Under the pieces are notes generated by a model. It was not told the origin of the DNA, made no database searches, and saw nothing but the letters and a program-made list of their open reading frames with translations. The position numbers and the translations under genes are program-made. 31,345 bases of DNA from positions 1 to 31,345 of the IMG/VR virus record IMGVR_UViG_3300032080_000018. One strand, written 5' to 3'. Of the stretch, positions 1,651-14,666 are shown one piece after another; the first letter of the stretch is position 1, and each line of letters starts with the position of its first letter. Source of the stretch: a virus.

Positions 1651-1950
1651 ATGAAGACCGTAGCTTTGGCCTGTGCGACTTTCTTGGTTTTAGGATGTGC
1701 TGAGCAACCCAGAAATGCAAATTACCGGCCGCCCCGTGCCGACGAGCTGCGGCCAGGTGATACCCCGCCCTCGCCCGGTCCATTCGTCGAGTCCACAGTT
1801 CCAAGCGGTGTGCAGCCCCAACTACCAACCCGCTCCTACCAGCCTCTACCCACCCCTTATCAAGTCCCTGTCTATCAGATGCCGATCCAGCGGCAGACCA
1901 ATTGCACAAGCCAGCGAATAGGGAACCAGATTTACACAACATGTAACTGA
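1651..1950 (+). CDS. Small proline-rich lipoprotein linked to the repressor
   Basis: The 99-residue product has a lipoprotein signal (MKTVALACATFLVLGC) with the lipid-bearing cysteine at residue 16. A long Pro/Gln/Tyr-rich extended region follows, with a C-terminal NCTSQRIGNQIYTTCN motif whose two cysteines could form a disulfide. GGAG sits 8 bases before the ATG. It is the last gene before the terminator at 1977-1999, so it is probably made with the repressor in lysogens and placed in the outer or inner membrane. Envelope lipoproteins in this position can act in superinfection exclusion or lysogenic conversion. That role is inferred from position only. Confidence 0.75.
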   Translation: MKTVALACATFLVLGCAEQPRNANYRPPRADELRPGDTPPSPGPFVESTVPSGVQPQLPTRSYQPLPTPYQVPVYQMPIQRQTNCTSQRIGNQIYTTCN

Positions 1951-12448: not shown

Positions 12449-12793
12449 ATGACGACGGCCACCAACATCTCCCGGCTCACCCCGGAGCTTGAGCAGATTC
12501 GCTTCGATGCCCTGCGCTACTGCGACGAACGCGGGCTGGAAGGCCTAGATGCATTGGAGCGCGTCATGGGTGCGTTGGCGCAGCAAGCTTTTCTGAAAAA
12601 TATCGAGCCTTACACCAAGGCGATGGCGGATGTGATGGCTTGCGGTACGGGCACAGTTCTTCAACATGCTGACGGGACCATCGAGTACATCCCCCAGCCA
12701 GTCGAGCCGTCGCTCCAGAGCGCTTTCGATGATCTGATCGAGAACGAGCGCAGGCGCTACGACCCGGCAGGGACTCGGCTTATATCGGGCTGA
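12449..12793 (+). CDS. Hypothetical protein in the post-attP cluster
   Basis: The 114-residue protein starts at ATG 12449 behind AGGATAGGA. It is helical in the first 65 residues (PELEQIRFDALRYCDERGLE ...), with a short GTVLQHADGTIEYIPQPVEP segment and a charged C-terminus. It ends 13 bases before the convergent stop of Rz1, so the rightward and late leftward transcripts meet here. No strong terminator is visible; only a small hairpin (12801-12816) overlaps the Rz1 stop. Confidence 0.6.
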   Translation: MTTATNISRLTPELEQIRFDALRYCDERGLEGLDALERVMGALAQQAFLKNIEPYTKAMADVMACGTGTVLQHADGTIEYIPQPVEPSLQSAFDDLIENERRRYDPAGTRLISG

Positions 12794-12806
12794 ATGCGGG
12801 GAAGCG

Positions 12807-13064
12807 TTAGCGCTTCGGCCAGAGCGAGTAGTCTGCAGGCTTGACCGGCTGGCCTGCAAGCGCTGCCTCTCGGCACTCGCGGTACTGCCCGGCCACCTCG
12901 ATCAGCTTGAGCGTCGTGGCGCCAAAGCTGTCATCGCTTAGGGGCGCCAGCTTCGGGCAGCTTGCCACCACCAGCGGGCTCGGCTGCGTCTCCCGTGAGG
13001 GCGGCGTTGATGTCGCGCAGCCAGTAGAGAGTAGAATGATATTCAGGAGAACCGCATATGCCAA
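12807..13064 (-). CDS. Rz1-like outer-membrane spanin lipoprotein, start rewritten
   Basis: The 85-residue frame has a hydrophobic signal ending in the lipobox LLSTGC (lipid-bearing Cys at residue 16). A Ser/Pro-rich stretch follows, then PKLAPLSDDSFGATTLKLIE and QYRECREAALAG, typical of Rz1-type spanins in beta- and gammaproteobacterial phages. It would be the outer-membrane half of the spanin pair. No ATG exists in frame; TTG at 13064 is the only useful start. It has no Shine-Dalgarno sequence and gives a signal peptide without a basic residue. The start overlaps the first codons of the opposite-strand HNH gene, which appears to have replaced the natural Rz1 start. Expression may be impaired. 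Confidence 0.65.
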   Translation of the reverse strand: MAYAVLLNIILLSTGCATSTPPSRETQPSPLVVASCPKLAPLSDDSFGATTLKLIEVAGQYRECREAALAGQPVKPADYSLWPKR

Positions 13065-13663
13065 GACTGATCGATGAGGCTGGTAATCGCTATGGAAGAT
13101 TGCTGGTGATTGAGGTTGGTGGTCGGCGGCGCACAGTTCCACTGTGGCGTTGTCTTTGTGATTGCGGGAAAGAAGTCCTGTCGGAGGGGGCTGCCCTGCG
13201 CTCGGGTCGGCATCGGTCTTGCGGGTGCCTAAAGAAAGATGGCGGAAAACAGCGATTAACAACGCACGGGCTCGGCCGCATACCAGAGGCAGCGATCTGG
13301 AATTCGATGAAGCAGCGTTGCTCAAATCCCAATACGCTTGGCTACGCCAACTACGGAGCGCGAGGGGTAAAGGTGTGCGAGAGGTGGCGCGAATCATTGA
13401 CGAACTTCCTCGAAGATATGGGCAGGCGCCCGTCCCCGCTGCATTCCGTTGATCGCAAAGACAACGACGGCGACTACGAGCCCTCGAACTGCCGATGGGC
13501 AACACTGGTTGAGCAGCACAGCAACACCAGAAGAAATGTTTTCGTTTTGCACGAGGATGAAGAAATCACGGTTGCCGAGTGGGCGCGGCGACACGGAGTC
13601 CACGTTCAGACTGCTTGGGGGCGCTATCGTCGCGGGGAGATTCCCCGGTCAGAGACTCGTTGA
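13058..13663 (+). CDS. HNH endonuclease inserted between Rz and Rz1
   Basis: The 201-residue product resembles free-standing phage homing endonucleases. The N-terminal part (residues 9-57) has GNRYGRLLVIE and a Cys cluster (C32, C34, C36, C55, C57) that could hold zinc. A middle segment has AIWNSMKQRCSNP and YANYGARGVKVCERW. The HNH motif (residues about 129-150) reads HSVDRKDNDGDYEPSNCRWAT, split here as HSVDRKDNDG plus DYEPSNCRWAT. A C-terminal helix-turn-helix-like segment (EITVAEWARRHGVHVQTAWG) probably reads DNA. It is transcribed against the whole late operon, with AGGAG 9 bases before its ATG. It sits exactly between the two spanin genes. Confidence 0.85.
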   Translation: MPRLIDEAGNRYGRLLVIEVGGRRRTVPLWRCLCDCGKEVLSEGAALRSGRHRSCGCLKKDGGKQRLTTHGLGRIPEAAIWNSMKQRCSNPNTLGYANYGARGVKVCERWRESLTNFLEDMGRRPSPLHSVDRKDNDGDYEPSNCRWATLVEQHSNTRRNVFVLHEDEEITVAEWARRHGVHVQTAWGRYRRGEIPRSETR

Positions 13664-13946
13664 TGTTGCGCATCACCTCCGCGGTATTCTTGCAATCTAT
13701 ATAGCGTGTGTTTTCGCGCACGATGGTTTCGACGCGGCCTTTGACGGTGGTGTTGACCACCTTGATTTGAGAGATTGCATCAGCAGCTCCTTGCTGGGCC
13801 GCAGCCCTCGTTTCGTCGATGGCTTTGTTGACCTTTGCCTGTTCAGAAATGATCCGGTCTTCGCCTACACCCATGCCGAACCAGCCGGCGCTACCGACTG
13901 AGGCGACCCAGAACAGGACGGCGCCGAGGATGAGGTAGGGGTTCAT
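13566..13946 (-). CDS. Rz-like inner-membrane spanin with altered C-terminus
   Basis: The 126-residue product has an N-terminal membrane anchor (residues about 3-25: PYLILGAVLFWVASVGSAGW). A periplasmic helical region follows with the Rz-like pattern RVETIVRENTRYIDCKNTAE and INESLTG, where comparable proteins usually end. The last 25 residues (from ESPRDDSAP) are read antisense from the end of the HNH gene and look like a new tail. Its ATG overlaps the stop of the zinc-knuckle gene (ATGA). It should span the periplasm with Rz1 for outer-membrane disruption. Separation from Rz1 by the HNH gene is unusual. Confidence 0.75.
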   Translation of the reverse strand: MNPYLILGAVLFWVASVGSAGWFGMGVGEDRIISEQAKVNKAIDETRAAAQQGAADAISQIKVVNTTVKGRVETIVRENTRYIDCKNTAEVMRNINESLTGESPRDDSAPKQSERGLRVAAPTRQP

Positions 13947-14023
13947 GCCAGCCTCCAGAAGAGCCGCTTGGTGCACTCAGAGGCGCTGTGCCCCTGCATG
14001 CCGCAGTAGGTGCACCACTTCAT
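13943..14023 (-). CDS. 26-residue zinc-knuckle peptide in the lysis cassette
   Basis: The predicted peptide begins MKWCTYCGMQGHSASECTKR. It contains a perfect CCHC knuckle, C-X2-C-X4-H-X4-C, covering half its length. It is linked by overlaps to the holin-like gene upstream and to Rz downstream (ATGA), which supports real translation despite its size. Zinc knuckles of this type bind single-stranded nucleic acid or proteins. I recall similar mini-proteins next to spanins in related phages, but know no function. Confidence 0.6.
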   Translation of the reverse strand: MKWCTYCGMQGHSASECTKRLFWRLA

Positions 14024-14205
14024 TTTTCTTCCTTTGTGAGCGCCTTTTGGCCCACGTTCGCGGCGAAGTACAGCGCTGTGACGCTGCCCCAGACGGTCAG
14101 CAAACCGGCTTGGTCGAGCAAGCCAAAGAAGCGCAGCACGGTAGGCGCGATCAGCAGGAAGACGGCGATCAGCCACTTCCGGGAGGCATATCGTTCTGTG
14201 TTCAT
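14020..14205 (-). CDS. Putative holin (two membrane segments)
   Basis: The 61-residue protein has a short basic N-terminus (MNTERYASRK), two hydrophobic helices (residues about 11-30 and 34-52) and a charged tail (KALTKEEK). Size, topology and location directly after the endolysin gene suit a class II or pinholin-type holin, which would release and activate the SAR endolysin. The start overlaps the endolysin stop as ATGA. The membrane protein encoded before the endolysin is the alternative holin. Confidence 0.6.
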   Translation of the reverse strand: MNTERYASRKWLIAVFLLIAPTVLRFFGLLDQAGLLTVWGSVTALYFAANVGQKALTKEEK

Positions 14206-14666
14206 GGCTTCTCGCAAAGCGTCCGTTCGGCGGCGCGTCGGTTGACCAAGCCCGGCAGCGTCTTGCCGCCAGCCATGACCCAGCGCGAGAGTTCTGCACA
14301 CGCGCCCGGCATGTCTCCCGCGTTGGCCTTGCGCACCAACGTAGACCCGCAGAATGCAGGGCGGCCCACATTGAAGGTGAACGAAAGCAGCGCAACCTTC
14401 TGGTTGTCGTTGAGCGGCACCTTCACGCAATCGAGGTCGTCGGCATGCTTGGCAAGGTCGCTGTAGAGCATTTCCCGGCACTGCTCTGGCGTGTATGTGG
14501 TGCCGAGCCGAAGCGACGAATCCACGTGGCCGGTGCAGGCGGTGATGATCCCGATGGGGTCGCGATACGTCTGGAGGACTGTGCCCTCTTTGCTCGCGAC
14601 AAATGCGACCGCAGCCGCCGCGGCCAGTGCGCCAACCTTGGCGATCAGTTTTGCCTTGGCGCTCAT
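14202..14666 (-). CDS. SAR endolysin, GH24 lysozyme
   Basis: The 154-residue muramidase has the T4/P22-type catalytic triad in the spacing E-X8-D-X5-T: E27, D36, T42 (SKEGTVLQTYRDPIGIITAC). GYxxN-like features and LLSFTFNVG follow further on. The N-terminal segment (residues 7-25, LIAKVGALAAAAAVAFVAS) is a weakly hydrophobic, Ala/Gly-rich helix directly before the catalytic Glu, typical of a signal-anchor-release sequence. The enzyme would be exported to the membrane in inactive form and freed when the membrane is depolarised. It cuts the glycan strand of peptidoglycan. Overlaps join it to genes on both sides. Confidence 0.9.
   Translation of the reverse strand: MSAKAKLIAKVGALAAAAAVAFVASKEGTVLQTYRDPIGIITACTGHVDSSLRLGTTYTPEQCREMLYSDLAKHADDLDCVKVPLNDNQKVALLSFTFNVGRPAFCGSTLVRKANAGDMPGACAELSRWVMAGGKTLPGLVNRRAAERTLCEKP

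Follow-up and report, generated by a model that had tools for sequence, protein, structure and literature searches.

An HNH-type endonuclease gene appears to have been inserted, in antisense, into an ancestrally overlapping pair of spanin genes, Rz and Rz1, giving a separated pair in which the formerly shared segment is duplicated. On the basis of sequence comparisons, we put the probability of this reading at about 0.85. The DNA examined was an IMG/VR virus record of 31,345 bp, analysed at its full length (the window). The lysis cassette lies on the reverse strand and comprises a phage lysozyme (endolysin) gene (14202–14666; Pfam PF00959, E 1.1e-39), a gene for a hydrophobic protein of 61 amino acids (14020–14205) that is a putative holin from its position only, Rz (13566–13946) and the mature Rz1 frame (12807–13019). 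A 26-amino acid ORF (MKWCTYCGMQGHSASECTKRLFWRLA; 14023–13943, reverse strand), which lies between the holin gene and Rz and overlaps the Rz start, carries a CCHC zinc-knuckle pattern and has near-identical copies in three of the sequences compared (L007, L008 and L009). An earlier note on this DNA had placed an HNH gene of 201 codons on the opposite strand between Rz and Rz1, and its coordinates (13058–13663, forward strand) were found to be right.

In a PHROG profile search, the product of this gene matched phrog_374 (E 1.2e-59), and it is 40–44% identical to annotated homing and HNH endonucleases, with a C terminus shorter than in most relatives. The gene starts at an ATG preceded by the Shine–Dalgarno (SD) sequence AGGAG (13045–13049, forward strand; duplex −7.4 kcal/mol), and its stop codon is located within the Rz-side copy of the duplicated segment, which is read on the other strand. 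The 201-codon product gave no match to a Pfam HNH domain and only a weak match to the I-HmuI (1u3e) profile (E 0.55). Its structure was predicted with AlphaFold at a pLDDT of 81 and a pTM of 0.50, and a Foldseek search of this model against the PDB returned no significant match. At the position where a catalytic His (DH) is usual in HNH motifs, the phrog_374-type family has DR; in the family alignment (window 13448–13511) this Arg is invariant, and the Asn is kept. Antisense to the gene, the Rz1 frame is open through most of its length, running for 232 codons from a GTG at 13505 (13505–12807, reverse strand).

An alignment with relatives lacking the HNH gene had been proposed beforehand, and in these relatives both the Rz tail and the Rz1 start differ from those of the window. 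The closest, L006 (IMGVR 3300048913_000141), shares these genes apart from HNH, its Rz and Rz1 being 70 and 84% identical, respectively. The Rz of L006 ends in VRDINSALTGEPAEPAGGGKLPEAQPAK and a stop codon; Rz1 uses the +1 frame of this DNA, its most likely start being an ATG within Rz that has the SD sequence GGGAG. Overlap is likewise found in the annotated relative from phage Mano. A survey was made of homologous Rz/Rz1 pairs from very diverse contigs (76 distinct Rz1 sequences with Rz nearby), in which the genes overlap in 69 pairs, are separated by a gap of <100 nt in five and carry an insert in two, the latter being the window and a second contig, L026. Because 69 of the 76 pairs, L006 and Mano are overlapped, the layout of the window, where Rz1 does not start within Rz, is taken to be derived. 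The insertion into the junction proposed in the earlier note is therefore upheld, relatives without HNH having continuous, overlapping genes and the inserted segment being ∼650 bp. It stated that Rz and Rz1 normally overlap or adjoin; the ancestral genes overlapped and did not merely adjoin.

Rz (126 amino acids) was matched to Rz-like spanins in PHROG (E 0.004) and is 50–70% identical to the Rz of L002–L010. It has the features of an i-spanin, namely a hydrophobic N terminus (read from the sequence), a position in the lysis cassette and homology to the annotated i-spanin of Mano. Residues 1–102 are homologous to relatives, whereas the 24 residues that follow LTGE (103–126) are new and are read from the antisense strand of the HNH gene. 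The two genes overlap in antisense by 98 bp; a tail antisense to the HNH 3′ end had been noted before, but it comprises 32 residues (95–126) and not 25. Compared with L006, the Rz DNA drops in identity from 85% to 57% at codon 73. This divergence beside the insert was considered as a sign of imported flanks and rejected, the same or a larger drop being present in six of the 14 uninterrupted pairs used as controls.

Remnants of the earlier arrangement were scored with a PSSM built from 67 uninterrupted relatives. To the left of the HNH gene, the old Rz tail is kept unread in the abandoned Rz frame (13020–12931, reverse strand), where LRDINAALTGD...APKR and its stop codon (in full, LRDINAALTGDAAEPAGGGKLPEAGAPKR) scored 30.6 bits. 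A second, recoded copy, MRNINESLTGE (13673–13641, reverse strand), stands near the present end of Rz and scored 18.8 bits, a value reached by none of 200,000 random segments. As DNA, these are imperfect repeats of 31 bp, 74% identical and 653 bp apart, and direct comparison of the two copies gave p = 0.0007 against shuffles. Judged from these copies, DNA formerly shared by both genes is now present once for each gene. The junction had been described as a site without coding slack, where an insertion may weaken or rewire spanin expression; duplication of the shared segment softens the damage. The original Rz1 start also persists within Rz, where an SD sequence AAGGAG (−7.8 kcal/mol) and an ATG at 13780, corresponding to the Rz1 start of L006, lead into MQSLKSRWSTPPSKAASKPSCAKTHAI, closed by a TAG after 27 codons (13697–13780, reverse strand).

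The same repeats could recombine, and the separated form with the HNH gene might then be ancestral, with the overlap of the relatives arising by deletion; for a comparable pair of phages, T5 and Shivani, the direction was indeed left open by Kongari et al. (PMC6139136). We consider this very improbable. Overlap is found in 69 of 76 pairs from very diverse contigs, and the sole two inserts are unrelated nuclease-like genes; moreover, the original Rz1 ATG and SD sequence survive in Rz as a dead start, and the old Rz tail, stop codon included, is retained in the abandoned frame. It is these relics of the before-state, on both sides of the insert, that fix the direction of change. Taken at the level of sequence, the comparisons demonstrate an insertion with its polarity, the relics, the duplication and the rewriting of both gene ends.

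HNH genes are frequently carried by group I introns, and a self-splicing intron or bypassed segment, the removal of which would restore Rz and Rz1, was also weighed. The likelihood of this is close to nil: no Rfam match at E ≤ 1 was obtained in 12600–14100, the HNH gene is antisense, and joining at the repeat restores Rz but not Rz1, the Rz-side frame of which is closed by TAG and TGA. On these grounds the HNH gene is assigned to neither a group I intron nor an intein.

On the other side of the insert, mature Rz1 runs intact from the lipobox Cys to the stop codon, and its homologue in Mano is annotated as an o-spanin. As reported in the earlier note, Rz1 contains no in-frame ATG, the TTG at 13064 overlaps the HNH start, and the signal peptide started there (LAYAVLLNIILLSTGC) is without Lys or Arg. 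The Rz1 frame ends at 12807, its overlap with the HNH gene at the TTG amounts to 7 bp, and this TTG has no SD sequence (+0.3 kcal/mol). A second possible start missing from that note, an in-frame GTG at 13142, also has none, and these two are the only standard starts within 60 codons. The new signal peptide (LAYAVLLNIILLSTG; 13020–13064, reverse strand) precedes the lipobox Cys (13019–13017); no homology to relatives could be detected in the DNA before the lipobox (p 0.49), which is antisense to the leader of the HNH gene, with the SD sequence of the HNH gene lying antisense to part of the signal-peptide coding region. Rewriting of both spanins at the junction, as previously claimed, is thus seen in the new Rz end after LTGE and in the replaced N-terminal part of the Rz1 signal peptide. 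A promoter-like site on the reverse strand (13064–13036) was regarded as a chance occurrence (0.4 expected in the region); transcription from it would begin downstream of the TTG at 13064.

Of the features of an o-spanin, Rz1 has the lipobox and a mature part 84% identical to that of L006, but its TTG start is without an SD sequence and its signal peptide without a basic n-region. Rz1 might accordingly have been destroyed by the insertion, leaving a remnant frame with no usable start, and lysis would proceed without it or via another protein. The absence of an in-frame ATG and the poor TTG and GTG starts would fit such a loss, as would the restarted o-spanins of L026 and Shivani, which do have an ATG with a strong SD sequence (−9.9 and −9.2 kcal/mol, respectively). 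Against it, the mature frame is intact, although a recent event would leave an intact frame too, and a hydrophobic stretch and a good lipobox (LSTGC) stand in frame before the Cys although the upstream DNA is new. We lean away from loss while taking it as a serious possibility; Rz1 is probably still made from the TTG at 13064, weakly. Because Rz1, unlike its counterparts in L026 and Shivani, has no start backed by an SD sequence, o-spanin output may be low here. Far from the lysis cassette, at 1651–1950 (forward strand), the window has another small lipoprotein frame, rich in proline (MKTVALACATFLVLGCAEQPRN...). It looks host-like, and a role as a spare o-spanin is unlikely but possible.

The second insert found in the survey, in L026 (IMGVR 3300048837_000371), is an ORF of 180 codons in the same Rz/Rz1 junction that is unrelated to the HNH gene of the window. 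Its best PHROG match (5046, E 1.6e-10) is labelled HNH, it contains a LAGLIDADG-like motif (AGIVEGEGWIG), and no Pfam match was obtained; given this disagreement and the lack of a Pfam match, we call it only a putative endonuclease. In L026, LGLVNDALAGQ (23.2 bits) stands on the Rz side, and LQLVDQALAGS (25.4 bits) is kept on the Rz1 side together with the old signal-peptide region (score of 22, with shuffled sequences reaching at most 17). When compared directly, the two copies gave a marginal result (p 0.047). Its Rz1 restarts inside the nuclease-like ORF, at the ATG with a strong SD sequence given above.

A published case is provided by Shivani/phiR201 and T5, in which Kongari et al. (2018, PMC6139136) described spanin genes separated by a GIY-YIG homing endonuclease gene. 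As in the window, a stretch of ∼700 bp that holds a free-standing endonuclease gene parts the overlapping spanins, and the i-spanin has a new end and the o-spanin a new N terminus. The Shivani gene (T5orf172/MUG113 domains) differs in lying on the same strand as the spanins, with an o-spanin started by ATG and SD sequence, whereas the window has an antisense HNH gene and a weak o-spanin start. Both insertion and deletion were left possible for T5/Shivani (PMC6139136), while the direction in the window is settled by relics and many relatives. In our alignment, a short imperfect duplicate of the overlap was present on both sides of the Shivani insert, the i-spanin side carrying LSGSLEYC and the o-spanin side a copy identical to that of T5; direct comparison was again marginal (p 0.016). 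The portion of PMC6139136 available to us does not describe this duplication. Further endonuclease genes lie just upstream of the i-spanin gene in T5 (L149; hegF) and Shivani (L147; Shivani49), which shows that T5-like lysis regions carry several such genes.

The duplication pattern would be common to three unrelated inserts, two of them with moderate repeat statistics (p 0.047 and 0.016). An endonuclease gene between spanin genes had been published for T5/Shivani (PMC6139136); what appears to be new here is the antisense HNH gene, the settled polarity and the shared duplication pattern.

As to the origin of the duplicate, the Rz tail copy and the HNH gene could have been imported from another phage as one recombination cassette, with the resident tail displaced downstream. 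Shivani and T5 differ mainly in about 20 nt beside the insert, the preceding i-spanin DNA being nearly identical after the first ∼60 nt; Rz tails are mosaic in this phage family, and replacement C termini have precedents in fungal atp6, rps3 and cox2 (PMC4019555). However, no donor with the Rz tail and this HNH gene was found, and a similar picture would result if the segment had been duplicated locally during repair and the copies had then diverged. Import as a cassette is thus a tentative proposal, to which we would give slightly less than an even chance.

The fungal mitochondrial elements (Allomyces atp6, Ophiostoma rps3 and Phlebia cox2; PMC4019555) resemble the window in having an endonuclease gene near the 3′ end and a new or duplicated C terminus, with the old one displaced downstream. 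No further coding role is known for their displaced tail, whereas that of the window must stay, as it encodes Rz1 in another frame. Like the mob genes of T4-like phages, which are HNH genes of the free-standing kind (PMC2988022), the HNH gene of the window lies outside an intron with short overlaps to its neighbours, but the mob genes are intergenic with known or suspected targets, and the window gene lies in formerly dual-coding DNA. The overlapped spanins of JG068 (gp48/gp49) and Achromobacter phage Mano share the order of Rz followed by Rz1 in the +1 frame, with Rz1 extending beyond Rz; theirs remain overlapped, and those of the window are separated by the HNH gene.

Among the other viral contigs searched, the same HNH gene was absent from the Rz/Rz1 junction. 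The flanks matched the L006 contig solely, and an HNH peptide motif matched two contigs, both of which lack this gene at the junction. As no close relative carries it there, movement of the element was not seen. In L009, a close relative with an intact Rz/Rz1 overlap, a homologous HNH gene (39% identity; L009:565–1134) lies in antisense orientation, flanked by lysozyme and the ORF that precedes Rz, and the cassette has thus been struck at a second place. Of the homing-type insertion previously suggested, the insertion is backed by relatives and the gene may have arrived by homing, but homologous HNH genes (about 40% identity) are present at many unrelated sites. Since phage endonucleases that are free-standing can cleave at a distance from the gene encoding them (PMC2988022), the Rz/Rz1 junction need not be the cleavage site.

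In the mechanism that we favour, an HNH-type homing endonuclease gene would have entered the overlapping pair in antisense and separated it, with a segment of at least about 31 bp, which coded for the Rz tail and, in a second frame, for the beginning of mature Rz1, being doubled to one copy per gene. Each spanin would thereby retain the residues that it needs. The Rz copy would continue into a new tail, antisense to the HNH gene; the Rz1 copy would have lost its original start and signal-peptide N terminus and would use hydrophobic codons from the antisense strand of the HNH leader. Selection may have kept only those insertions in which the overlap was duplicated and both frames retained the shared segment.

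How phages switch between overlapped and separated spanin architectures is an open question in the spanin literature (PMC6139136). Endonuclease genes of unrelated kinds may land repeatedly in the spanin overlap, each tolerated insertion duplicating the dual-coded segment to one copy per gene, which would be a general route from overlapped to separated genes; we regard this generalization as evenly balanced. The window, L026 and Shivani suggest that dual-coding DNA is open to invasion by a mobile gene provided that the shared segment is doubled, and, if the landing-site reading is true, they would constitute a natural experiment on how overlapping genes get pulled apart.
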